64,000 nucleotides of DNA from Mangrovimonas sp. ST2L15 (GTDB taxonomy: Bacteria > Bacteroidota > Bacteroidia > Flavobacteriales > Flavobacteriaceae), in the NCBI RefSeq assembly GCF_001280515.1, contig NZ_LBIQ01000030.1, positions 372,001 to 436,000 on the forward strand. Reading direction: 5' to 3'. Below, piece after piece: positions 27,610 through 41,965 of this stretch (position 1 is its first letter; every line of letters begins with the position of its first letter). Both the position numbers and the translations under genes were made by a program. A model generated the notes under the pieces. That model saw only the letters and a program-made list of their open reading frames with translations, did not search any database and was not told the origin of the DNA.

Positions 27610-28570
27610 AGGTTTTACCAAGATTGTTAGTTTTTGCATGCTTAATAGCCAACAAAAATATCTTAAAGTTTTGACTTAGCCCACAATTAAAAAAAAGAAT
27701 GAAAGTAAAAATGGCAAGGTTAATTGAATACACCGCAGAATTCTTAGTCAAATACCTTTTCTCAAAAATCATTCGATTTCTAATGGTATAATATATTCTA
27801 AACCTAGAGCCTTTACTTATAGTTTGAAAAACCGTTTGGGATGTACTATTTACACTCCATGATTTATCAATATCCCTAACTTTACTGTTAAGTAATAAAA
27901 TGATTTTTTTACTCATTTTGGTAATACGGTAACTCCAGTCATGGTCATCCGAATACAAATAAAACTCCTCGTCAGGAAACCCTATGTCATTTATTAATGA
28001 CTTGTGAAAAAACATGCCTCCATATGGTGCATAAGCAATTCTCCCAGATGTGATCTTACTGTTTAAAGATTCTCGTTTCTTAAATGGTTTTTTTAATTTC
28101 TCCATTAAACTGAATCCATAGAAACTATTTGGTTTACTCAGTACCAAATTTGGGTTCTCACTGAGTATTGCTGTCTTATATTGATAACGATCTGGCCTGT
28201 AAGATAATAAACAAGCCGTTTCATTATCTTTTCTTACCCAATAACTATGTATATTTTCAAGAGCGCCTTCTTCAGGCTCGTTATCATCATCAAGTAACCA
28301 AATATACTCATGCTCTGATTTTTGAAAAACATACTTTAGACCAATTTTAAATGCTTTTGCAGAACCTTCATTAACCGTATTCCAGATAACATGTAAATTA
28401 GGGCTATACTTCGTTTGAAAGTTTTGTAACAAAACTTTACTCTCATTTTCTGAATTATTATCTACAACAACAACTTTGGATACCCTCTCTTTAAAACAAG
28501 TCTCAATTACTCTTTTTAGTAAATGAAATCTATTTGAATATGTAACTATAATTACAGTTGTATTTAACAT
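27590..28570 (-). CDS. Glycosyltransferase family 2
   Basis: Inverting GT-A sugar transferase of 326 aa. It shows the N-terminal TVIIVTYSNRFHLL strand, VVVDNNSEN (about residue 36) and the metal-binding DDDNEPEEGAL region (about residue 95), with a later DHDWSYR (about residue 200) matching rhamnosyltransferase-like GT2 enzymes. A C-terminal hydrophobic stretch (about 285-300) may bind the membrane. Since dTDP-rhamnose genes are in the same locus, rhamnosyl transfer is a reasonable but unproven guess. Confidence 0.88.
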   Translation of the reverse strand: MLNTTVIIVTYSNRFHLLKRVIETCFKERVSKVVVVDNNSENESKVLLQNFQTKYSPNLHVIWNTVNEGSAKAFKIGLKYVFQKSEHEYIWLLDDDNEPEEGALENIHSYWVRKDNETACLLSYRPDRYQYKTAILSENPNLVLSKPNSFYGFSLMEKLKKPFKKRESLNSKITSGRIAYAPYGGMFFHKSLINDIGFPDEEFYLYSDDHDWSYRITKMSKKIILLLNSKVRDIDKSWSVNSTSQTVFQTISKGSRFRIYYTIRNRMIFEKRYLTKNSAVYSINLAIFTFILFFNCGLSQNFKIFLLAIKHAKTNNLGKTFEGSLN

Positions 28571-28573
28571 AAA

Positions 28574-29482
28574 TTATTCCCAAGCCTTTATTTTTTTACC
28601 TAAAACCTTTTCTAATTCATTGATGTCCTCAACAAAGAACCTATTCTTAATCAAATCACGATCATATGGAATTTTCTTTTCAGAATCATTTAGCAACTTT
28701 AAGTTCTTTTTATAAACAAATTGTTTTAAAACAACTCTCAAGTTTTTGGGCAGTACTTGTTTCAAAAAATCCTTGATTTTAGATGGTGTATTTAAAAATT
28801 TTGAGACCCAAAGAAATTTTGCTTTCTCAGCGGGGTTACTTTTTAAATCCAAATTCAATTCCTGATGATTTACACCTAAAAATTCCTGTATTTCATTTAT
28901 TACGATCTCTTTATTAGCCAAAAACTCTTCAAATATAAAAACCCTCACATTGTCTTTAGGGAATTGTTTATAAATGTATTTTAGAGTTCCTGAGTATTGC
29001 CCTCTGGATATATAACCAAAATGGTTTTTTTCAAAATGACCAAGTTCTTCAGACTCATAATCTTTATGATATTTTGGACTTGAAAGCCGCAATGGTTCAT
29101 TTTCAAGAGCATCTAAAAAATCAAACTCTTCATACCCCCTTTTTTTACTCATTAAATAATGAGAAAAAGCTCTTTTAACAGGGTCTCTCAATAAAAAGAT
29201 AATTTTAGTATCTGCTCCAAAACAATCTAAGATCCGGTCAATAGACCTATTTTCAATTTGTAAGTTAGGGTTAATATTTCCAATACACTTTTCATCGTTA
29301 AAAGTTTTGAAATAAGTCTCAAAATAATATTTTAGACCCTTAGCATACACTTCATTTACATCAAAAAAATGAGCCTCTTTTTCAATCGGCAAGTAAATTT
29401 CAGAATGCTGTTTTAAAATATCATGTAAAAGTGTTGTGCCTGCTTTTTGTGCTCCAATACAAAAAAAATGGACTTTATTCAT
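28574..29482 (-). CDS. PAPS-dependent sulfotransferase
   Basis: Sulfotransferase of 302 aa (Sulfotransfer_1/3 superfamily) that would transfer sulfate from PAPS to a glycan hydroxyl. The 5'-phosphosulfate loop is GAQKAGTT at residues 10-17, and the 3'-phosphate-binding motif is FLLRDPVKRAFSHYL (about residue 105). No membrane segment, so it is cytoplasmic and would act on the lipid-linked repeat unit. Its ATG overlaps the upstream gene's stop (ATGA). The nearby cysD, cysN, cysC and cysQ genes supply and recycle the donor, which supports a sulfated polysaccharide product. Confidence 0.9.
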   Translation of the reverse strand: MNKVHFFCIGAQKAGTTLLHDILKQHSEIYLPIEKEAHFFDVNEVYAKGLKYYFETYFKTFNDEKCIGNINPNLQIENRSIDRILDCFGADTKIIFLLRDPVKRAFSHYLMSKKRGYEEFDFLDALENEPLRLSSPKYHKDYESEELGHFEKNHFGYISRGQYSGTLKYIYKQFPKDNVRVFIFEEFLANKEIVINEIQEFLGVNHQELNLDLKSNPAEKAKFLWVSKFLNTPSKIKDFLKQVLPKNLRVVLKQFVYKKNLKLLNDSEKKIPYDRDLIKNRFFVEDINELEKVLGKKIKAWE

Positions 29483-29769
29483 TCTCTAATTCTAATTATT
29501 TTACCCGGTACTCCTCCTACTATTCCATTTCGAGGAACATTTTTAGTTACCACCGCATTTACAGCAATAATAGCACCTTCTTCTATTGTGACTCCTTTGT
29601 TAATAACTATACCGTGTCCTACCCAAAAATTATCTTTAATTGTAATAGGATCTGTAATAATACCTTGTTGTGTCATAGGCTTATTTAGATCCTTAAAGTC
29701 AAGGTCTGTATCTCTAATTGATACTGAATCTGCAATCATAACATTTTTTCCAATCAAATGGTTTGACAT
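29479..29769 (-). pseudogene. Truncated hexapeptide-repeat acetyltransferase (C-terminal part only)
   Basis: The 96-aa frame holds only the C-terminal left-handed beta-helix of a WcaF/maltose O-acetyltransferase-type enzyme: LIGKNVMIADSVSIRDTD, then ITIKDNFWVGHGIVINKGVT and the closing GVPGKIIRIRE. Intact enzymes are usually 180-220 aa. The segment after IRDTD normally holds the catalytic His (as in DTDHS) but here reads LDFKD. The frame is closed upstream by a stop and runs into a sulfotransferase fragment in another frame. It is probably a non-functional remnant, though a short expressed protein cannot be excluded. Confidence 0.75.
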
Positions 29770-29845
29770 CAAAATAATACTCTATACTGGATCCCGCACA
29801 TTTAGGAATATGTAAAAAAATGACTTTATGTTTATGACTTATCAT
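29714..29845 (-). pseudogene. 5' fragment of a second sulfotransferase gene (Sulfotransfer_2-like)
   Basis: A 43-codon frame beginning with ATG overlapping the flippase stop (ATGA) encodes HKVIFLHIPKCAGSSIEYYF, the N-terminal PAPS-binding loop (HIPKCAGSS) of the sulfotransferase family 2. It then runs into sequence coding in another frame for the acetyltransferase remnant and stops at 29714. The rest of the enzyme is missing. The coupled start codon shows this was once a regular member of the operon. A deletion or recombination at about 29760-29775 best explains the structure. Confidence 0.7.
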
Positions 29846-31161
29846 TTGAATAATGGTATTGATAGTATTCCCGTAAACTTTCTGGCAAAATAGACTTTAG
29901 TTATATTTTCTAACGCAATAACCAAACTGGTGGCTGTTGCCGCTCCAATAGCACCAAATTTTTGTATTAAAATAAAATTCAAAAAAATATTAAAAATAGC
30001 ATATCCAGTAGAAATGTAGCTATGAACTTTTCCAAACCCGCATAATATCAATAGTAACCCCGAACACCCAGTGCTAATATTAATTAATTGCCCTAAACCA
30101 AGAATAATTAAAATATTATAAGCTTCTTTGAACTCCACTCCCCAAAGCCCTAATATAGGTTTACCTAATAAAATGAATGCAAATAAAAATAAGATTCCAA
30201 TAGGAACTAAAAATAAGGTAACTCTTTGAACCAAAACTTGTAAGTCACTTTTCTTATTAAGTTCATAAAATGAAGCTATTTTGGGTGCTAACGACGAATT
30301 TGAAACTTGTAAAAAAAACAAAACAAATAACGCTAATCTAGAAGCAACACTGTATAGTCCAACTTCTGCAGAATCACTTAACCAGCCTAACATAATAACA
30401 TCTGTTGAAGTAGATATAATAACCATCGAAGAGACCAATAAAAGTGGTAACGAATCTTTTAGAATAGAAGGGTCATACACTCTTTTATAGTTCTTTTTCC
30501 GAAACAACTTATGCCAATATGCTCTAGCCGAAAAAAAAGTTACTACCTTACCAAGAGCGTAGAGCAAAATAATATTAAGAATGGTAATTTCTACAGCAAA
30601 AATCCAATAAATTATTAATCCTATTCCTATTATTACTGAAGTTAAAACCTCCTTGAGCAAATTACTTTGCCAAACTTTGCGATATCCATTAATACCACTC
30701 GCATATATTTGTCCTATCGTTTGAGGAAGTATTGCACAAAACATAATTAGGAGGGGAGTATAGATGAACTCTGATTCAAAAATTTGTTCAGCTAAATATC
30801 TAGAGCTTAAAATACCTAGAACTATAACAGTAAATGACGAAAACAGGCCTATAATAACACTTGAATAAATATTATTATTAATTGAACTGAAATCTCTTTG
30901 GCTTACTCCAACAGATATGTTTTTAACGAGAACATTATCCAATCCGAGAGTTGAAAATACCATAAGAATTGTTATAATTTGATTAATTAGGTTGATATTC
31001 CCTAATCCTTCAGGTCCCAAAGTCTGACCAATAAAAATACTTACCAACAGTCGTGCAATTATCCCAAAAATTTTTACAATCATAGAATAATAACCCTTAC
31101 TAAATACTTCTTTTGTATGGATATCTAAATTACTTAGCCTTTTCTTCAATCTTATGGGCAT
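29842..31161 (-). CDS. wzx: Wzx-type polysaccharide flippase
   Basis: Integral membrane protein of 439 aa in the MATE/Wzx superfamily with twelve to fourteen predicted helices. The N-terminus (KGYYSMIVKIFGIIARLLVSIFIGQ, spanning about residues 22-46, then LGPEGLGNINL) is typical of Wzx. It would flip undecaprenyl-PP-linked repeat units to the periplasm for polymerisation by the Wzy-like proteins downstream. The ATG at 31161 is preferred; a TTG at 31176 adds five residues. It is the first gene of the distal polysaccharide block, after a gap of about 230 nt with a promoter. Confidence 0.88.
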   Translation of the reverse strand: MPIRLKKRLSNLDIHTKEVFSKGYYSMIVKIFGIIARLLVSIFIGQTLGPEGLGNINLINQIITILMVFSTLGLDNVLVKNISVGVSQRDFSSINNNIYSSVIIGLFSSFTVIVLGILSSRYLAEQIFESEFIYTPLLIMFCAILPQTIGQIYASGINGYRKVWQSNLLKEVLTSVIIGIGLIIYWIFAVEITILNIILLYALGKVVTFFSARAYWHKLFRKKNYKRVYDPSILKDSLPLLLVSSMVIISTSTDVIMLGWLSDSAEVGLYSVASRLALFVLFFLQVSNSSLAPKIASFYELNKKSDLQVLVQRVTLFLVPIGILFLFAFILLGKPILGLWGVEFKEAYNILIILGLGQLINISTGCSGLLLILCGFGKVHSYISTGYAIFNIFLNFILIQKFGAIGAATATSLVIALENITKVYFARKFTGILSIPLFK

Positions 31162-31185
31162 AAAAACGTATAACAATCAAATATT

Positions 31186-31193
31186 CAAAACTA
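31186..31193 (-). promoter_or_regulatory. Promoter -7 box for the flippase and distal polysaccharide genes
   Basis: The minus strand reads TAGTTTTG, matching TAnnTTTG, 24 nt before the flippase ATG. The gap between cysN and wzx (31162-31387) is the longest in the window; apart from this box it shows only an AT-rich dyad (31251-31258 with 31262-31269) and no visible coding remnant. Confidence 0.5.
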
Positions 31194-31387
31194 AAAATTA
31201 TATTCGATTTGATTTTTTAAAAAAGAAAACGGTAATTAACTTAATGAAGCTAATTCTTAGAAAGAATTAAATACTGTAATATAATAGCTATTCTCTTTTC
31301 CTCAGTAATTGATATTTTTAATGACTTTGAGATATGTATTCAAAAAATATTTAATTAATTAATGGCTAGACAATTAACGCTAAAATA

Positions 31388-32641
31388 TCACACCACCATC
31401 CCGGCAGCCACAGTTTCATTAGTTGCATCATCAACCAAAATAATACTTCCAGTCGTTCTATTCTCTCTATATGAATCCACCATCAAAGGTTGGGTAGTAC
31501 GTAGTTTTACTTTACAAATATCATTCATGGTCAACTCCTTGTCATCTTCTTTTCTTTCCAAGGTATTGATATCAATTTTATAGACAACTTCTTTAATCAT
31601 CGCCTTTTGGTCATTTGAAGTGTGTTTTACAGTGTATTTTGCTCTTGGCTTAGCCGGACTGTTATTCAACCAACAAAGCATTACCTCGATGTCCTGACTA
31701 GCCTCAGGCTTATTGTTTGAGCGAACGATCATATCTCCACGACTAATGTCTATATCATCTTCTAAAGTAATGGAAACCGACATGGGCGCAAAAGCTTCAT
31801 TTACGGCACTATCAAAGGTATCTATTGAACGGATTTTGGAAGTAAATCCAGATGGCATCACTGTGACCTCATCACCAGGTCTAAAAACACCACTCGCAAC
31901 ACGTCCTGCATAACCTCTATAGTCCCTAAATTCTCCTTGCTGCGGTCTTAAAACCGTTTGAACAGGGAAACGCGCATCTACTTTATTGATATCACTACTT
32001 ATGTGCATGGTTTCAAGGGTATGTAAAAGAGGTGCGCCTTGATACCAATCCATATGCTCAGATCTGTTCACCACATTGTCTCCCAACAAAGCAGAAATAG
32101 GAATAAATCGAACGTCTTTTACCATCATTTTAGAGGAAAACTCTTCAAATTGCTCAATCACTTTTTGATAAGCATCTTCCTGAAAATCAACTAAATCCAT
32201 TTTGTTGATACACACTATCACATGGGGGATTTGCAATAAAGAGGCAATAAAGGAATGCCTTCTGGTCTGCTCAATAACTCCATGTCTGGCATCGACCAAA
32301 ATAATGGCAGCATTAGCTGTTGAAGCCCCTGTTACCATGTTTCTGGTATATTGAATATGTCCAGGCGTATCGGCTATAATAAACTTACGCTTTGGTGTGG
32401 TAAAATATCTGTAAGCCACATCAATGGTAATTCCTTGTTCCCGTTCATCTCTTAATCCATCTGTAAATAACGCCAAATCAACGCCTTCATGACCTTTTTT
32501 CTTACTCGTGTTCTCAATGGCCTCAAGTTGGTCTTCAAAAATGGACTTTGAATCATATAACAACCTACCGATTAAGGTACTTTTCCCGTCATCAACACTC
32601 CCTGCAGTTGTAAATCTTAATAATTGGTTATTGTCTAACAT
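31388..32641 (-). CDS. cysN: Sulfate adenylyltransferase subunit 1 (GTPase)
   Basis: GTP-hydrolysing subunit of ATP sulfurylase, which with CysD makes adenosine 5'-phosphosulfate (APS). The 417-aa protein shows the P-loop GSVDDGKSTLIGRL (about residue 14), switch II DTPGHIQYTRNM (about 95) and NKMD (about 150), followed by beta-barrel domains 2 and 3 of the EF-Tu type. There is no fused APS kinase; CysC is separate. It is the last gene of the cysQ-DUF2061-cysC-cysD-cysN group, 52 nt after cysD. Confidence 0.96.
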   Translation of the reverse strand: MLDNNQLLRFTTAGSVDDGKSTLIGRLLYDSKSIFEDQLEAIENTSKKKGHEGVDLALFTDGLRDEREQGITIDVAYRYFTTPKRKFIIADTPGHIQYTRNMVTGASTANAAIILVDARHGVIEQTRRHSFIASLLQIPHVIVCINKMDLVDFQEDAYQKVIEQFEEFSSKMMVKDVRFIPISALLGDNVVNRSEHMDWYQGAPLLHTLETMHISSDINKVDARFPVQTVLRPQQGEFRDYRGYAGRVASGVFRPGDEVTVMPSGFTSKIRSIDTFDSAVNEAFAPMSVSITLEDDIDISRGDMIVRSNNKPEASQDIEVMLCWLNNSPAKPRAKYTVKHTSNDQKAMIKEVVYKIDINTLERKEDDKELTMNDICKVKLRTTQPLMVDSYRENRTTGSIILVDDATNETVAAGMVV

Positions 32642-32693
32642 ATATTTTTATTAGTAGTACTATAATTGAATTATAGAATAATTGATGTTTAAT

Positions 32694-33599
32694 TTAAAAA
32701 TACCCTTGACGTTTACGGTCTTCCATAGCGGTTTCAGAACGCTTGTCATCACTTCTGTTCCCTCTTTCTGTTTGTCTCATAGCGGAAACTTCATTGGCAA
32801 TCTTTTCAACGGTATCTGCATCGCTTTCAATACCACCTGTAATAGTAATATCTCCTAAAGTTCTAAAACGTATCTTCTTGACGACTATTTCTTCTGTCTC
32901 TTCAAGCATTAAAAATTCTGAATTGGGTATCCAAGAATTGTTTCTCCAAACACACTCTCTTTCATGAGCAAAGTATAAGGATGGTATTTGAATGTTTTCC
33001 CTTTTTATGTAATTCCAAACGTCCATTTCAGTCCAATTACTGATAGGAAATGCTCTAAAGTGTTCTCCTTCAAAATGCTTGCCATTGAAAATATTCCAAA
33101 GTTCTGGACGTTGGTTTTTAGGATCCCATTGTCCAAAATCATCTCTATGTGAAAAGAAACGTTCTTTTGCTCGTGCCTTTTCTTCATCTCTTCTTCCTCC
33201 ACCTATGGCACAATCTACTTTATGTGTTTCTATGGCATCCAATAAGGTAGTTATCTGAAGTGCATTTCTGGTTGCGTTCTTTCCTCTTTCTTCTGCTACT
33301 CTCCCTTGATCAATTGATTCCTGTACAGAGCCTACAATCAAATTGACACCCAACTCGTCAATCAAATCATCACGAAATTTAATGGTCTCAGGGAAGTTGT
33401 GTCCCGTATCCACATGCATTAAAGCAAAAGGAATTTTACTAGGGTAAAATGCCTTTCTGGCTAAATGCGTCACTACTATCGAATCCTTTCCTCCAGAAAA
33501 AAGAATAACCGGATTTTGAAATTGAGCCCACACTTCACGCAATACAAATATCGCTTCACTCTCTAACTCGTCTAAATAATTTAAATAATACTTACTCAT
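32694..33599 (-). CDS. cysD: Sulfate adenylyltransferase subunit 2
   Basis: Catalytic subunit of ATP sulfurylase, forming APS from ATP and sulfate with CysN. The 301-aa protein has the PP-loop ATP-binding motif ILFSGGKDSIV (about residue 32), followed by the HVDTGHNFPET and GGGRRDEEKARAKER regions typical of CysD, and the C-terminal DRKRQGYF ending. Its ATG overlaps the cysC stop by 4 nt (33596-33599), so the two are translationally coupled. Confidence 0.97.
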   Translation of the reverse strand: MSKYYLNYLDELESEAIFVLREVWAQFQNPVILFSGGKDSIVVTHLARKAFYPSKIPFALMHVDTGHNFPETIKFRDDLIDELGVNLIVGSVQESIDQGRVAEERGKNATRNALQITTLLDAIETHKVDCAIGGGRRDEEKARAKERFFSHRDDFGQWDPKNQRPELWNIFNGKHFEGEHFRAFPISNWTEMDVWNYIKRENIQIPSLYFAHERECVWRNNSWIPNSEFLMLEETEEIVVKKIRFRTLGDITITGGIESDADTVEKIANEVSAMRQTERGNRSDDKRSETAMEDRKRQGYF

Positions 33600-34195
33600 G
33601 ATTGCCTTGACAATTTTGGCGTTATAAATTCAATAATCCTAATGACTGCTTCGTCAACAGATTCTTTTTCCGTTTTTATTTCAATATCGGGATTTTCTGG
33701 GGCCTCATAAGGGGCAGAGATTCCAGTCATATTTTTTATTTCACCGGCTCTTGCCTTCTTGTAGAGTCCTTTCACATCCCTTCGTTCACATTCCTCAACA
33801 CTGGTGTTGATGTAAACCTCAACAAAGTTAACATCTTTGACGATTCTTCTTATGTTATCACGGTCTTTTTTATAGGGCGAAACAAAAGCCGCCAAAACCA
33901 CCAACCCAGCATCTACCATCAAACCTGCCACTTCTGCAATTCTGCGAATATTTTCAGTTCGATCTTCTGGAGAAAAGCTTAAATCATTATTAATTCCCTT
34001 TCTAATGTTATCACCATCAAGAGTATAGGTTTTAATTCCCTTTTCAAATAGTTTTTGCTCTACAACGTTAGCAATTGTCGACTTCCCTGATCCCGAAAGT
34101 CCTGTGAACCACAATAAAAAAGAGTTATGTTTATTCGATGTCCTGCGATCTTCTTGAGACACCTGATATGAGTGGGGTATAATGTTCTCCTTCAT
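33596..34195 (-). CDS. cysC: Adenylylsulfate kinase
   Basis: APS kinase, phosphorylating APS to PAPS, the sulfate donor for sulfotransferases. The 199-aa protein shows the P-loop FTGLSGSGKSTIA (about residue 31), the DGDNIRKGIN motif (about 60) and the conserved GVYKKAR-like loop (here LYKKARAGEIKNMTGIS). No PAPS reductase (cysH) is in the window, so the PAPS made here most plausibly feeds the sulfotransferase in this locus. It starts 14 nt after the DUF2061 gene. Confidence 0.97.
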   Translation of the reverse strand: MKENIIPHSYQVSQEDRRTSNKHNSFLLWFTGLSGSGKSTIANVVEQKLFEKGIKTYTLDGDNIRKGINNDLSFSPEDRTENIRRIAEVAGLMVDAGLVVLAAFVSPYKKDRDNIRRIVKDVNFVEVYINTSVEECERRDVKGLYKKARAGEIKNMTGISAPYEAPENPDIEIKTEKESVDEAVIRIIEFITPKLSRQS

Positions 34196-34209
34196 TTCTT
34201 ATTTCTTTA

Positions 34210-34638
34210 TTAATCAACCTCTCGGTTAGGAAGTCCAAAATTGATGCGATACCAAATTCTTTCATGAAAATAGTATAAAGTCATTTTAGTTAGAACTTCA
34301 GCAAGACCTATTTTTAAACCAGCCATAGGATTTCCAGAAATAATCCAAGCTAAGGTCATAGTATCTATGGTCCCTATCATTCTCCAAGTAATGGTTTTAG
34401 CAATATGTCGTTTCTTGCTTTCCAAACGTCTCCCATCTTTTGAAAGATTGATTTTAAACCAAACTCTTTCATGCAGATAATAAAGGATAGATTTGGTGGT
34501 TACCTCAGCAAAACCTATTTTCAATCCTGTCAAAGGATTTCCTGTTATTAACCAAGAAAGCAGAATGGTATCTAATGTTCCTACCAATCGCCAAGTGATG
34601 GTTTTTGCAATATGTCGTTTATAGGAAACGTCTGCCAT
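34210..34638 (-). CDS. Tandem DUF2061 membrane protein in the sulfate-activation operon
   Basis: 142-aa protein made of two DUF2061 domains in tandem (from about residues 9 and 78). Each carries HIAKTITWR, a hydrophobic helix ending in SGNP or TGNP, LKIG-AEV-TK and a closing YY-HER-W motif. The DNA of the repeats is also close: identical GCAATATGTCGTTT tracts lie at 34400-34413 and 34607-34620, exactly 69 codons apart. DUF2061 function is unknown. Its place between cysQ and cysC suggests a part in sulfate uptake, activation or PAPS use; this is inference. Confidence 0.85.
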   Translation of the reverse strand: MADVSYKRHIAKTITWRLVGTLDTILLSWLITGNPLTGLKIGFAEVTTKSILYYLHERVWFKINLSKDGRRLESKKRHIAKTITWRMIGTIDTMTLAWIISGNPMAGLKIGLAEVLTKMTLYYFHERIWYRINFGLPNREVD

Positions 34639-34641
34639 AAA

Positions 34642-35442
34642 CTATCTACTCACCAAAAAATAACTGTTCAACAAGTTTTCTTTATTGTACTGTAAAGGTT
34701 TATCCGTTTCCTTAGAAATAACCTGTAAGCCAACAGCATTACATATGGCCTGACCTGCTGCTGTGTCCCACTCCATAGTAGGAGCGTATCTTGGGTAAAC
34801 ATCAGCATTCCCCTCTGCCACCAAACAGAATTTTAAAGAACTACCTTTGGAGACAATCTCGACATCCTTGCCTTCATTTTTAAGACACTCGACAAAGTCT
34901 AATGTATCCTGATTCATATGGGAACGACTCCCTACAACTTCAATTTTATTTGACTTTTCAGTCTTTGGACTTAAGGCTCTAGCCTTTATCATTATTTCCT
35001 CAAAAGAAACATCATGAGAGTCAAGCTCAACTTTAAAGGCTTCCTCTTTAGTCACATCAGCAAAATATAACGATTTTACAGCTGGGACATAGATTACCCC
35101 CAATTGTGGTTTCCCCTGTTCTACCAAGGCTATATTAACAGTAAATTCGCCATTACGCTTTATAAATTCTTTGGTCCCATCTACTGGATCAACCACCCAA
35201 CAAGTATCCCATGTTTTCCTTACAGCATAGTCCACTTGTTTATTTTCTTCACTTATGATTGGAATTTCGGTTGGTATTAAAAATGAATTGATGATATCAT
35301 TTGATTGTTTATCAGCTTCTGTTAAGGGAGATTTATCATCCTTATATTCCACATCAAATACAGAATCATAGACTTCCATAATTCTTTCACCCGCCTTTAA
35401 GGAGGCTTCAATAGCTATTTTTAAATGATTATTTATTGACAT
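34642..35442 (-). CDS. cysQ: 3'(2'),5'-bisphosphate nucleotidase
   Basis: Inositol monophosphatase-family phosphatase of about 266 aa that removes PAP, the inhibitory by-product of sulfotransferases, or returns PAPS to APS. It shows metal-binding motifs [11 protein letters not shown] (about residue 33), SEENK and the signature [13 protein letters not shown] (about residue 83), with [10 protein letters not shown] near the C-terminus. The ATG at 35442 (MSINNHLK) is preferred to 35451; either way the start overlaps the end of fcl. It completes a PAPS make-and-recycle set with cysC, cysD and cysN. Confidence 0.93.
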
Positions 35443-36475
35443 ACCAATCATATACTTTTTTAATTCCGTCCTTTAATTCAATTTGATGTTTCCATCCTAG
35501 GCCATTCAGCTTAGAGACATCTGTTAATTTTCTCATGGTTCCATCAGGTTTTTCAGAGTTAAAAACCAACTCTCCGTCAAAACCAATAATTCCTTTTATT
35601 GTTTCTGCCAGTTCCTTTATAGATACTTCCTTACCAGTTCCAATATTAATATGGGTATTTCTGATTTCCTTAGCTCCCTCTGAATAGGTATCTTCAAAAT
35701 TTCTATTTTCCATTATAAAAACACAGGCATCAGCCATGTCCTTTGACCACAAAAATTCCCTCATTGGCTTTCCTGAACCCCAAATCTCTACACTTTTTTC
35801 GCTAATACCAAATTTTGATAGATAGGATTTTGCCTCTTCAATAGAATCCATTTTCAAATCATTTAAAACTTCCTCAATATTTCCGTCATTAAGAAGTTTA
35901 GCTAAATGGATTTTACGTATCAAGGCCGGCAAAACATGAGATTTTTCCAAATCAAAATTATCATTTGGCCCATATAGATTAGTTGGCATAACCGAAATAA
36001 AATTAGTGCCATACTGAATGTTATAACTTTCACACATCTTTATCCCAGCAATCTTAGCAATGGCGTAAGGCTCATTGGTATATTCTAGAGGATCTGTTAG
36101 CAAGTAATCTTCCTTCATGGGTTGTGGGCAATTCTTTGGATAAATACAAGTACTTCCCAAGAACAATAATTTCTTAACTCCATGAACATAACTTTGATGA
36201 ATCACATGATTCTGAATCATCATATTATCATAAATAAATTCAGCTCTATACACATTGTTGGCTATTATTCCACCAACTTTTGCAGCTGCTAAAAAAACGT
36301 ATTCCGGCTTTTCGGTTTCAAAAAATTGCTCGACCCTTTCTTGGTTGGTTAAATCTAGCTCAGCATGGGTTCGAGTAACGATATTGGTATAGCCTTTGTT
36401 TTTTAAATTCTCAAGAATAGCGCTACCTACAAGTCCTCTATGGCCTGCAACATAAATCTTTGAATTCTTGTCCAT
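35429..36475 (-). CDS. fcl: GDP-L-fucose synthase
   Basis: Bifunctional epimerase-reductase making GDP-L-fucose from GDP-4-keto-6-deoxymannose. The 348-aa SDR protein has the NADP-binding [21 protein letters not shown] and the [11 protein letters not shown] catalytic Tyr-Lys (YxxxK). It is longer than the usual 310-320 aa because of an insertion at about residues 195-230 ([20 protein letters not shown] and on), rich in charged residues, placed after the AALIRKIH segment. It follows gmd by 7 nt and overlaps cysQ. Confidence 0.95.
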
Positions 36476-36482
36476 AGACTAA

Positions 36483-37601
36483 TTATTCGAAATAGTTATT
36501 GATTCGGTATCCACCTTCTTGAAGGTATTGCTGCTTCTGCATCAATATAAGATCACTTTGCATCATATCCTCAACTAAAGCAGGTAAATCATATTGAGGC
36601 ACCCAACCAAGCTTTTCCTTGGCCTTTGTTGCATCTCCAATTAATAAATCTACTTCTGTTGGGCGGTAGTATTTTTTGTCAACAGCAACAACTTCTTTTC
36701 CAATTTCCAGTTGATAATCTGGATTAGAGCAAGATTTGATATATCCTTTTTCCTCTGATTCTTCTCCTTTAAATTCCAATTCAACCCCAATATGAGCAAA
36801 ACACATTTTCACAAAATCCCTAACGGTTGTTGTTTTCCCAGTAGCGATTACCCAATCTTCAGCTTCCTCTGCTTGAAGAATCATCCACATCATTCTGATG
36901 TAATCCTTGGCATGTCCCCAATCGCGTTTCGCATCCAAGTTTCCTAAATACATTTTATCCTGTAACCCTAAAGCAATTCGAGAAGTAGCTCTCGTGATTT
37001 TTCTGGTTACAAAAGTTTCTCCTCTTATGGGTGATTCATGATTAAATAAAATCCCATTGCAAGCATACATTCCGTAGGCTTCTCGGTAGTTAACAGTTAT
37101 CCAATACGCATACATTTTGGCAACAGCGTAAGGGCTTCTAGGATAAAAAGGTGTGGTTTCTGTTTGAGGAACTTCCTGCACCTTTCCATATAACTCTGAA
37201 GTTGAAGCTTGGTAAATTCGTGTCTTCTTTTCCAATCCCAAAATTCTAATAGCTTCTAATATCCTTAGTGTTCCAATTCCATCAGCATTAGCCGTATATT
37301 CTGGGGTTTCAAAAGAAACGTGAACATGGCTCATAGCTGCCAAATTGTAAATCTCATCGGGTTGAACCTCTTGGATTATTCGAATTAAATTGGTACTATC
37401 TGTTAGATCTCCGTAATGAAGAAAAAAGTTCCTGTGCTCTTCATGAGGGTCTTGATATAAATGATCTATTCTATCGGTATTGAACAAAGATGATCTTCTT
37501 TTAATACCATGTACAATGTAATCTTTCTTTAAAAGAAATTCACTTAAATAGGCTCCATCTTGTCCAGTAACCCCCGTAATTAATGCTACTTTTTTACTCA
37601 T
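36483..37601 (-). CDS. gmd: GDP-mannose 4,6-dehydratase
   Basis: First committed step to GDP-L-fucose, converting GDP-mannose to its 4-keto-6-deoxy form. The 372-aa SDR protein shows [15 protein letters not shown] at the N-terminus, [14 protein letters not shown] (about residue 133) with the catalytic Thr/Ser-Glu, and the [12 protein letters not shown] YxxxK motif (about 155). It overlaps the rfbD stop by 4 nt and is followed by fcl, its pathway partner. Confidence 0.97.
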
Positions 37602-38458
37602 TTTATTTGATTAATAACTTTATATAAACTATCCCTCCAATAAGGGATTTCAATATTCATTTGTTTTTTGATTTTGGCTTTATCCAAAACACTAAAGCTA
37701 GGTCTTTTTGCCGGAGTTGGATAAGCTTCTGAAGGAATATTTCCAACTTTTATTTTATCATTCCCCTGAATGTCAAAAATCGCCTTAGCGAAATCATACC
37801 AACTAGCAACACCTTCATTACTGAAATGATAAATGCCATATTGCTCTGAATTATTCTTTATAACATCTAAAAGCACAATTGCTAAATCTCCTGCATATGT
37901 AGGCGTTCCTACTTGATCTCCCACCACATTCAATACTTCTCGGTCCTCCCCTAATTTCAACATCGTTTTTAAAAAGTTATGCCCGTATTCCGAATATAAC
38001 CAAGAGGTCCTTATAATGAAATGCTCTTTTAATTTGGCTTGAATTTCAAGTTCTCCTTGAAGCTTTGAATACCCATAAACTCCAAGTGGATTTGTTTGAG
38101 CTTCTTCGGAATAAGGAATAGACTGGCTACCATCAAAAACAAAATCGGTTGAAATATGAATGAGTTTTGACTTATGTACTTGGCATGCCATCGCTAAATT
38201 TTCAGCTCCAAAAGCATTAATTTCATAAGCCATTTTCTCATCACTTTCAGCCTTATCTACGGCAGTATAGGCCGCACAATTGACACACCAACTTATTTGA
38301 TTTGTTTGAAAAAAATCCAAGACATTTTGCTTATTTAAAATATCAAGATCTTGAACATCTGTAAAACAAAATTCAAAATCTGAATAGGAAGCTTGAAGAT
38401 CTTTGATACATTGACCCAATTGCCCGCTAGCTCCTGTAATTAGTACCTTATTCTTCAT
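37598..38458 (-). CDS. rfbD: dTDP-4-dehydrorhamnose reductase
   Basis: Last enzyme of dTDP-L-rhamnose synthesis. The 286-aa SDR-type protein has [13 protein letters not shown] at the N-terminus, [11 protein letters not shown] (about residue 61), STDFVFDG (about 103) and the YGYSKLQGE catalytic Tyr-Lys (about 128). Its start overlaps rfbC by 11 nt. Part of the contiguous rfbB-rfbA-rfbC-rfbD set. Confidence 0.95.
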
Positions 38459-38999
38459 TTAAATATGCTTCAAAAGTTGGTAAAACAAGATCCTTTTCTG
38501 ATAATTGTGCCTGTTCCAAAGGAAATTCCCAATCAATGTTCAATGATTTGTCATTGTATATAATGCCGCCTTCTGATTCTTTATTATAAAAATTATCGCA
38601 CTTATAAGAAAAAATAGCGGTGTCACTAAGCACTATAAAACCATGTGCAAAACCTCGAGGAACAAAGAACTGTTTTTTATTTTGACCAGATAATTTTACG
38701 GAAACATATTCCCCAAAAGTCTCTGAGTTTTTTCTTAAATCAACAGCTACATCCAACACTTCTCCTTGGATTACCCGAACCAATTTGGCTTGGGCAAAAG
38801 CCCCATTTTGAAAGTGTAAGCCCCTTAAGACTCCTTTAGCAGAGAGAGACTCGTTATCTTGAACAAATTTTACCTCTGCACCAATAGTCTCATTAAATTT
38901 TTCTTGGTTAAACGATTCAAAAAAATAGCCTCGTTCATCCTCAAATATCTTTGGTTCAATAACGAAGCATCCTTTTAATTTAGTTTCCTTTCCTATCAC
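38448..38999 (-). CDS. rfbC: dTDP-4-dehydrorhamnose 3,5-epimerase
   Basis: Cupin-fold epimerase of the dTDP-L-rhamnose pathway. The 183-aa protein shows the family's [17 protein letters not shown] opening (about residue 20), the catalytic-His region [19 protein letters not shown] (about 58) and [13 protein letters not shown] (about 113). The start codon is GTG, overlapping the rfbA stop (GTGA). Confidence 0.96.
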
Positions 39000-39868
39000 C
39001 CCTCTTTATGTTTAAGAAGTCCTAACAGATTTTTACCATACCCACTTTTCATTAAGGGCTCTGCCAAATCTTTAAATTCCTGTTCCGTTATAAATCCCAT
39101 TTCAAAAGCTGCTGCCTCGATAGATCCTATTTTCAATCCTTGACGCTCCTCAATCACTTCAACAAATTGAGAGGCTTGCATTAGGGATTGAAAAGTACCC
39201 GTATCTAACCAAGCCGTCCCTCGGTCCAAAATACTCACATGCAAATTACCTTGCTCTAAATAGGCTTTATTGATATCAGTAATTTCCAATTCACCACGGT
39301 GACTGGGTTTGATATTCTTTGCAATTTGAACAACTGAGTTATCATAAAAATAAATCCCCGGAACCGCAAAATTGGATTTTGGGTTTAATGGTTTCTCCTC
39401 AATAGAAATGGCTTGTCCTTCATCATCAAATTCAATAACCCCGTAACGCTCCGGGTCGTGAACGCGATAAGCATATATGACCCCTCCATTAGGGTCATTG
39501 TTGCTTTGAAGTAGGCTAGAAAGACCAGTTCCATAGAAAATATTATCTCCCAATATTAAGGCTACCTTATCATTTCCAATAAAATCAGCTCCAATAATAA
39601 AGGCTTCAGCCAACCCATTTGGAGCTTCCTGAACCGCATATTCAAATCTACAACCATACTTCTTACCATCTCCCAATAAATCTTGAAAAAGAGGTAAATC
39701 TTTAGGTGTAGAAATAATAAGGATTTCCCTTATTCCAGAATATATAAGTGTAGACAACGGATAATATATCATCGGTTTATCATACACGGGCATCAATTGT
39801 TTGCTTACCGAGAGAGTTAAAGGATGTAATCTAGTACCAGAACCACCGGCTAATATGATTCCCTTCAT
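38996..39868 (-). CDS. rfbA: Glucose-1-phosphate thymidylyltransferase
   Basis: Makes dTDP-glucose from glucose-1-phosphate and dTTP, the entry to dTDP-rhamnose. The 290-aa nucleotidyltransferase shows [17 protein letters not shown] at the N-terminus, with [26 protein letters not shown] (about residue 108) and [10 protein letters not shown] (about 160). It overlaps both rfbB (4 nt) and rfbC (4 nt), a tightly coupled set. Confidence 0.97.
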
Positions 39869-40920
39869 GATTGATATTGCTTTTCGTAATACGTTTGATA
39901 TGCTCCACTAGTCACATGGTTCAACCATTCTTGATTAGATAAATACCAATCTATGGTTTTTGAAAGCCCCTCCTCAAATGTCACTGATGGCTCCCATCCT
40001 AATTTCTCATTGATTTTGGAAGCATCAATAGCATATCGTAAATCATGTCCAGGCCTATCTTTAACATAGGTTATTAATTCTTCAGAAGTTCCATTGGCAT
40101 TACCCAATTTTTCGTCCATTTGCTTGCAGAGCAATCTTACCAAATCAATATTCTTCCACTCATTGAAACCTCCTATATTGTAGGTTTCTCCATTTTCGCC
40201 TTCATGAAAAACCAAATCAATAGCCCTAGCATGATCTATGACATAAAGCCAATCTCTTGTGTAATTACCATCACCATAAACTGGTAATGGTTTTTTATTG
40301 ATAATATTATTGATAAATAAAGGAATTAACTTCTCAGGAAATTGATTCTGTCCGTAGTTGTTGGAACAATTTGAAATTACATAAGGCAAATCGTAGGTTT
40401 CCCCATAAGCTCTAACAAAATGATCTGAGCTCGCTTTAGAAGCCGAATATGGTGAGTTTGGAGAATAAGGTGTAATTTCAGTGAACAAGCCGCTTTCCCC
40501 AAGTGTTCCATAAACTTCATCTGTGCTTATATGATAAAATCGTTTTCCATCAAAATCATGCTCCCAAATGCCCTTGAAAGCATTTAAAAGATTTAAGGTC
40601 CCGATAATATTTGTTTTCACAAAAGCCAACGGATCCTTTATAGATCTATCCACATGCGATTCAGCTGCTAAATGAATAACGGAATCAAACTGATATTGTT
40701 TAAATAATTTATTGATAGATTCCTCATCATTGATATCGGCCTTAAGGAAGTGGTAGTTCTCTTCTTCTTCAATATCTTTTAAATTCTCAAGGTTTCCGGC
40801 ATAAGTCAAACTATCCAGATTATAAATTTGATATTCAGGATACTTGTTTACAAACAATCTCACAACGTGAGACCCTATAAAGCCCGCTCCTCCTGTAATT
40901 AGGACATTATTTTTATTCAT
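39865..40920 (-). CDS. rfbB: dTDP-glucose 4,6-dehydratase
   Basis: Second enzyme of the dTDP-rhamnose pathway, NAD-dependent. The 351-aa SDR protein shows [26 protein letters not shown] (about residue 80), HISTDEVYG (about 130) and the catalytic [15 protein letters not shown] (about 160). The ATG at 40920 is preferred to a TTG at 40932. Its 5' end overlaps the Wzz-like gene by 8 nt. Confidence 0.97.
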
Positions 40921-41965
40921 AGGCTTTAGCAAATTTTACCAATCTAGAAGTTAAATAAATGACACATAACATAAGAAATGCCAAAACGGGAAAGATCAGA
41001 GCATATCTATTATACCAATCAGATGTTTTATTCCCAACGTATTGAAATTCAGAAATGACATCAAAAAACACATCTTCTTCTACCTTTCTTTCTTCTAAGC
41101 TTTTCAATGTATTTCTTAACTCTATTTCTTTATTCAATAAATCATATTCTCTAGTATTTGATCTATCCTTGCTAAGTGAAAGTCCTTCGCCCAAAATAAG
41201 TTCAGTACTAGTAGATTTGGAATCTTCTTCTAAAACATTGATATAAATTCTTTGTAGAGAGTCCACCTTAGCCAATTGTTCCAAAATGTTATTCTTTTGA
41301 ATCGTTATTAGGGAATCCCTTTTTCTTTTCTTAGTCTCAGTGTATTCATTAGTAAATGCATTATTTAATCCCTTTTCCAATTTCGGAAAAATATCCTGTC
41401 TTAAAGAAAAAGCTTCGATTTGAAAAATACTGCCGGAATAAACACTTCTATTTTCTATATACTCCTCATAGGAAATCGTCGATGCTCGAGTACTATCCAA
41501 AGACCTAATAAAGCTATCATATTCTTTTATTCTTTCATTTTCAGTTTCTGGACCTGGGCTAATTTCAAAACTTAAAACTTCTTGAGCCTCTTCTTCACTT
41601 AAATCAAAGAAGTTTGAAAAAGTTGCATAGTCCTGATTGTCAATAAGAGCATTATAATAATTGATGTTAGTAACCAATTGATATTTTGAGTCAAAATAAG
41701 GTCTGACTAACATGGATGAAGAATAAACATCTGGAGATATTTTCTCCAATGCAAAACCCAACACTCCAGCTATGACCATTGTCACAACAATAATTTTAAA
41801 ATTGACAATTATTACCTTCAGAGCATAAATAATAACAGAAAAAATTGCCTTAAAAATAGAGCCTATAAACTTGAACAATCTATTAAAGGCATCTCCTATA
41901 AGTTTAAATAATTGTCCTAAATCAACCTCTTCTGTCGATTGGTTGTTTGATGAATTTTCGTTCAT
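40913..41965 (-). CDS. Wzz-like chain-length determinant protein
   Basis: Inner membrane protein of 350 aa with the Wzz/PCP layout: N-terminal membrane helix (about residues 58-77), a long charged, mostly helical periplasmic domain with coiled-coil parts, and a C-terminal helix (about 325-342). An extra hydrophobic amphipathic stretch precedes helix 1 (about residues 28-50). There is no fused tyrosine kinase. It would set polymer length with Wzy. It lies between the 562-aa gene and rfbB and starts the sugar-nucleotide block. Confidence 0.8.
   Translation of the reverse strand: MNENSSNNQSTEEVDLGQLFKLIGDAFNRLFKFIGSIFKAIFSVIIYALKVIIVNFKIIVVTMVIAGVLGFALEKISPDVYSSSMLVRPYFDSKYQLVTNINYYNALIDNQDYATFSNFFDLSEEEAQEVLSFEISPGPETENERIKEYDSFIRSLDSTRASTISYEEYIENRSVYSGSIFQIEAFSLRQDIFPKLEKGLNNAFTNEYTETKKRKRDSLITIQKNNILEQLAKVDSLQRIYINVLEEDSKSTSTELILGEGLSLSKDRSNTREYDLLNKEIELRNTLKSLEERKVEEDVFFDVISEFQYVGNKTSDWYNRYALIFPVLAFLMLCVIYLTSRLVKFAKAYE

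Follow-up and report, generated by a model that had tools for sequence, protein, structure and literature searches.

Within the window, i.e. the whole 64,000-nucleotide stretch of DNA that was analysed, part of a surface-polysaccharide operon is carried by the minus strand, in the order flippase (31161-29842), scar (the interval under study), sulfotransferase (29482-28574) and glycosyltransferase (28570-27590). The flippase (Wzx-like, Polysacc_synt) is intact, with 439 aa from its ATG and a PF01943 score of 71.6 bits, and so is the sulfotransferase (Sulfotransfer_1, 302 aa, PF00685 at 56 bits). Two short open frames lie between them on the same strand. ORF A (29845-29714) opens with an ATG (29845-29843) overlapped by the flippase TGA (29844-29842) and is 43 codons long plus a stop. 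Its first 34 codons (29845-29744), MISHKHKVIFLHIPKCAGSSIEYYFDVKPFDWKK, are the start of a Sulfotransfer_2 gene, IPKCAGSS loop included, as judged from the full-length frames of relatives; 9 out-of-frame codons follow, then a TAG which ends at 29714. ORF B is open from 29781, has a possible ATG at 29769 and ends at 29479. Its product is LIGKNVMIADSV...GKIIRIRE, the last 92 codons being those of a hexapeptide O-acetyltransferase, and its TGA shares bases with the ATG of the sulfotransferase that follows (ATGA, 29482-29479). Flippase, ORF A, ORF B and sulfotransferase are in this way linked by a chain of overlaps.

The initial annotation of this DNA had described an ATGA overlap between the flippase stop and a short frame, which is found at 29845-29842, then about 30 codons of a sulfotransferase start, of which 34 can be matched to Sulfotransfer_2 genes, and lastly the C-terminal half of an acetyltransferase in another frame, which is there as the 92 codons just mentioned. 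The interval that it had delimited, 29714-29845, does hold ORF A, but it leaves out the end of the acetyltransferase piece, at 29479. The G+C content is 0.34-0.40 in the cys genes versus 0.25-0.33 in the flippase, the scar and the following genes; no step in base composition was found at the scar. Opposite the scar and the acetyltransferase piece, an antisense frame of 122 codons is open on the plus strand (29447-29815); it is most likely a by-product of codon use.

The two gene fragments and their intact relatives

When compared with Pfam, the sulfotransferase piece gave a match to PF03567 (E 0.0014) at 19.3 bits, i.e. below the curated cut-off of 22, as expected because the piece is short. 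In a search of 397 genomes of the family (own genome included) with a threshold of E ≤ 0.001, its 34 aa matched 43 other places in 34 other genomes, the best one with an E value of 4.4e-10 and 70% identity, which rules out a chance similarity. All 43 places are frames of 215-287 aa without internal stops. For the best 12 of the 43, the alignment starts at the first residue and identity is 56-74% over the first 28-34 residues. The own genome contains no close second copy: its next matches have E values of only 0.13 and 0.96. The eight full-length Sulfotransfer_2 genes aligned with the piece encode 226-231 aa, and two of them, L080 and L079, score 55.2 and 55.8 bits, above the PF03567 cut-off. 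With an N-terminus that aligns to intact genes from residue 1, the piece is by descent part of a Sulfotransfer_2 gene. The N-terminal strand and the IPKCAGSS loop are common to the family and to the piece, but only 34 of about 230 residues are kept before the frame is lost, and about 195 are absent. Two attributes expected of a working enzyme of this family are lacking, namely a score above the gathering cut-off and the full domain of about 230 residues.

ORF B is above the Pfam cut-off for PF00132 (32.5 bits, cut-off 27). Its best NCBIfam match is WbbJ (PRK09677), aligned at profile positions 87-184 of 192 (E 1.5e-16), with 60.5 bits for a whole-protein cut-off of 243. These matches indicate that ORF B descends from a left-handed beta-helix O-acetyltransferase of the WbbJ/Maa/LacA (maltose-type) group. 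The 92-residue fragment matches 35 of the 397 family genomes, own included, at E 1e-15 or better. In this family search six other genomes are set apart by 60-73% identity to the fragment, the remaining matches being at 49% or less. Three genus searches gave five more loci: one new among 23 genomes, one new among 10 and three new among 71, each total counting the genome already known. The intact relatives are 11 in number and 184-190 aa long, against 92 residues in the window; those of G384 and G797 are near-copies (99% identical). Among named genome contigs searched with the fragment there were 8 loci, the best at 73% and the other 7 at 33-55% over 48-92 residues; among viral contigs none was found.

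According to a passage of the NeuO structure paper (PMC3046976), every member crystallised so far has its catalytic histidine in a protruding loop, plus a conserved tryptophan where acetyl-CoA is used. The column at the catalytic position, which aligns with the His of solved acetyltransferases in all 5 of the alignments shown, contains His in the 11 relatives and Leu in the window; the Trp is kept in 12 out of 12 sequences, window included. The window piece thus has in common with the WbbJ / maltose O-acetyltransferase group the C-terminal hexapeptide coils and the conserved Trp, but its first half is absent and its catalytic-position His is replaced. Compared with what a working O-acetyltransferase should display, the Trp is in place, and the His and the length of about 185 residues are not. 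Departures at otherwise invariant positions were also counted. The window sequence departs at 5 of the 42 columns which are invariant in the other 11, and those 11, pooled and treated by the same rule, depart at 8 of 415, with at most 2 each (Fisher p 0.0038, a value to be taken as a guide only, since the rows are related and not independent).

Other observations were counted against decay, the retention of the Trp among them. The 92 codons of the fragment contain no stop and no frameshift, which is weak evidence because only 29 of the 828 possible single-base changes would create a stop. The end branch of the fragment (0.73; median 0.51, longest 0.75) is unexceptional in length and speaks against strong decay. 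Relative to the fit to the neighbouring sulfotransferase, the identities of the fragment are lower in 9 of 10 comparisons, but in 7 of 10 they stay within one standard deviation of it. On the basis of these sequence comparisons, both fragments are most likely dead, neither of them specifying a working enzyme, and a young scar is what fits best.

The junction

Homology to the sulfotransferase reaches 29744 and homology to the acetyltransferase begins at about 29754, which places the join within 29755-29744. The deletion point proposed initially, at about 29760-29775, has to be moved accordingly. The 12 bases in question (29755-29744, minus strand), GATTGGAAAAAA, can be read as part of both genes, as D-W-K-K in the sulfotransferase and as (L)-I-G-K-N in the acetyltransferase; a run of six A is present at the junction. 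Where homology ends in the window, the closest-looking Sulfotransfer_2 relative goes on with WKKPNYEVLYGWCPKR. At the protein level, the sulfotransferase relatives have W-K-K-P-N-Y-E (L080) or something similar, and the window turns instead to C-Y-D-C. On the other side, the acetyltransferase match starts at I-G-K-N-V-M-I-A.

Joining at a short shared run is plausible from the sequence. When 88 extant gene pairs (8 sulfotransferases x 11 acetyltransferases) were compared within both sites, the number of shared bases had a median of 6 and a maximum of 8, an example being ATTGGAAA at the junction register, so that short-homology joining is suggested and not proven; over their whole length, six gene pairs have no shared run longer than 9-11 bases. 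The run shared by the ancestral genes may have been shorter than 12 bases. Long or terminal repeats at the junction could be ruled out, as only weak repeats of 16-29 nt exist in 28500-32700; a 19-nt copy at 29769-29787 was taken as due to chance.

Very probably, an illegitimate recombination within a surface-polysaccharide operon fused two broken gene ends and left the interval as its scar. What is directly observed is both halves, full-length relatives for each of them, where the join lies and, in relatives, the gene order flippase - acetyltransferase - sulfotransferase. In the mechanism that we envisage, two unrelated sequences would have come together at GATTGGAAAAAA, where they shared 12 bases or fewer; the Sulfotransfer_2 gene would thereby have lost its last codons, about 195 of them, and the O-acetyltransferase gene its first ones, roughly 90-100. 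The downstream part of the operon would still be read thanks to the start/stop overlaps at either end. The proposal of a recombination scar with two incomplete genes, already made in the initial annotation, is well supported.

Gene order in relatives and history of the scar

Ten of the 11 intact acetyltransferase genes lie directly between a flippase and a sulfotransferase gene, i.e. between the two neighbours found in the window (identified by similarity to the window proteins, with confirmation by Pfam for G835). In none of the 10 loci is there a gene between flippase and acetyltransferase, and the sulfotransferase that comes next is related to the Sulfotransfer_1 gene of the window. The best match overall is G835, at 74% for the acetyltransferase piece and 56% for the sulfotransferase in the same position. 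The eleventh locus, in G364, has the order ABC-transporter gene with a Wzt_C domain, acetyltransferase, Sulfotransfer_2 gene.

For the Sulfotransfer_2 genes, 29 of the 43 places were compared together with their surroundings, up to 1.5 kb of flanking DNA per side. A flippase directly upstream was seen in none of the 25 loci with a resolved upstream neighbour (L007, L014, L015 and L030 being left out of this count): a Pfam scan of 19 of the neighbours gave no flippase, and 6 more are of the Sulfotransfer_1 type with a flippase before them. No match to a hexapeptide family was obtained for the 28 downstream neighbours scanned with Pfam. The order flippase - Sulfotransfer_1 - Sulfotransfer_2 is shared by L013, L020, L023, L026, L028 and L031 and constitutes a recurrent sulfation module; the flippases of these six loci are 70-100% identical to the two reference flippases of the group. 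Among the loci examined, there was neither one with both full genes in the order of the window nor a donor with a flippase directly before a Sulfotransfer_2 gene. The expectation that relatives would carry two full genes in place of the scar is therefore borne out for the acetyltransferase (10 of 11 loci) and not for the sulfotransferase (no flippase directly upstream in the 25 resolved loci).

The other species of the genus, three in number, were compared downstream of cysN. Two of them, G255 and G028, have a flippase followed by a sulfotransferase. The third, G397, keeps the order flippase - acetyltransferase-like gene (146 aa, 32%) - sulfotransferase. An orthologue at 60% or above is absent from this place in the three species. 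A separate cluster of G255 (L089:4545-8346) contains, within 4 kb, an acetyltransferase-like gene (40%) followed in order by flippase, glycosyltransferase and Sulfotransfer_2-like genes, and the two kinds of enzymes do therefore meet in one cluster. At the DNA level the scar was matched in one of the four genomes of the genus, the own one, and no match was found on plasmids searched with the scar and flippase DNA. Family-wide matches to both pieces gave no second copy of the scar outside the own genome, since in other genomes they lie in long frames (215-287 aa, and at least 171 aa).

Two variations were observed nearby. A small gene of 170-188 aa, lipoprotein-like by eye, sits between cysN and the flippase in G267, G346, G278, G754, G255 and G028; in the window the corresponding place (31162-31387, about 226 bases) has no long frame on that strand. 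Two extra genes are inserted between cysD and cysN in G346 (L075:1774-4674) and G397 (L111:12634-15468); the first one in G346 is an MBOAT O-acyltransferase (113 bits), and those of G397 look alike by eye. The cysD-cysN gap may also take up modification genes.

Two histories of the scar, about as likely as each other, can be proposed. According to the first, to which we give an even chance, a cassette made of a foreign flippase and the start of a sulfotransferase gene arrived at the locus, its right end joining illegitimately inside a resident acetyltransferase gene; its other end may have paired in the conserved cysN. The flippase itself suggests that it arrived from elsewhere together with the sulfotransferase start. 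Its closest relatives in the family search (best 4 candidates per genome) are those of G260 (41% identity) and G223 (35%). In the tree it groups with these two (support 100/100), apart from the 10 flippases adjacent to an intact acetyltransferase, to which it is 22-27% identical (the G835 flippase has a long branch and its position is unsure). The acetyltransferase is absent beside the flippases of both G260 and G223. The contrast between this tree and the repeated acetyltransferase-sulfotransferase order argues for an arrival, but flippases are diverse even among the 10 intact loci (23-93% identity), and a sliding-identity scan of cysC, cysD and cysN did not reveal any clear recombination breakpoint. 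Nor was a donor found when the flippase was searched at family and order level, where the best 4 candidates per genome were scored; the order-level search returned 1 of 376 genomes, the own one; the genus of G260 gave 1 of 2 genomes, G260 itself, and that of G223 gave 1 of 5, G223 itself. That the window is devoid of the small gene found after cysN in six relatives is another argument for arrival, a weak one because 4 of the 10 acetyltransferase loci (G384, G797, G835 and G810) are also without it.

The second history, which has somewhat less than an even chance, is a deletion in place: flippase, sulfotransferase, acetyltransferase and sulfotransferase genes would once have stood in a row and the middle would have been lost between short direct repeats. 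The start/stop overlaps at both ends of the scar do resemble an old operon, and both kinds of enzymes share a cluster in G364 and also in G255, where the acetyltransferase is a more distant one. Yet the required order exists in none of the 11 acetyltransferase loci and in none of the 25 resolved Sulfotransfer_2 loci, and the flippase of the window is not of the acetyltransferase-adjacent kind, so that a deletion in place would need an earlier exchange as well.

It is improbable that the short frames are functional, whether as a small fusion protein that slippage on the A run would produce, or as a relay taking ribosomes from the flippase to the sulfotransferase. The chain of overlaps from one neighbour to the other and the six A at the junction would suit such a role; against it, all matches in other genomes are in long frames and the His of the catalytic position is lost. 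The relay proper, in which ribosomes would pass from the flippase to ORF A, to ORF B (which starts inside ORF A) and, via the ATGA, to the sulfotransferase, and which would be the reason for the persistence of the scar, is likewise improbable; if true, it would mean that dead fragments keep the downstream gene coupled after the loss of both enzymes. Least probable of all is a false joining of two places by the assembler: the genome is a draft of 56 contigs, but the contig is 1.96 Mb long, the flanking order fits that of relatives, the usual assembly words are far longer than the 12-base shared run, and a query of 1,761 bases spanning the junction found a single matching site in the own genome (with 40 of 91 first-look candidates scored), which rules out a repeat-mediated assembly join.

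The glycan and known parallels

As to the product of the cluster, the other sulfotransferase (Sulfotransfer_1, 29482-28574), cysD, cysN and cysC are intact. The 31388-40932 region of the window contains genes for sulfate activation and PAP recycling (cysN, cysD, cysC and cysQ); it also contains genes for GDP-fucose (gmd above its cut-off, and a GDP-fucose synthase match below its own) and rmlA/rmlB. Such a set of genes suggests that the polysaccharide is sulfated and contains fucose together with a dTDP-sugar, for example rhamnose. Sulfation of the glycan has probably been retained, because an intact sulfotransferase remains together with cysN, cysD, cysC and cysQ. The loss of one O-acetyl group is plausible. 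That the ancestral glycan was more heavily sulfated, as first proposed, does not follow, as the Sulfotransfer_2 gene may have been cut on arrival; lost sulfation is a weaker idea than lost acetylation because a working Sulfotransfer_2 gene at the locus is an assumption.

Gene remnants are known in O-antigen clusters, an example given in a passage of PMC3715488 being the wzy remnants of Salmonella groups B1 and D1. As described there, these are partial genes left by deletion or recombination, with intact copies in relatives, and the same is seen in the window; the difference is that the window joins pieces of two different modifying genes and belongs to another bacterial family. For the effect on the glycan, a parallel is the natural loss of the capsule O-acetyltransferase WciG in pneumococcus serotype 20C, reported in PMC11705870, where losing one O-acetyltransferase gene can change the surface glycan, as we envisage for the window. 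The WciG effect was demonstrated by structure and gene removal, according to the same paper, whereas the present case, in another organism and with another enzyme, is proposed from the sequence.

To conclude, the scar is clear but ordinary, such remnants being already known in surface-polysaccharide loci. One practical consequence is for annotation: the two short frames should not be labelled sulfotransferase and acetyltransferase. The locus is a clean example, readable within 12 bases, of a sulfated-polysaccharide cluster changing its set of modifying enzymes. If strains differ at the scar, they would provide a natural test of the role of O-acetylation of the glycan.
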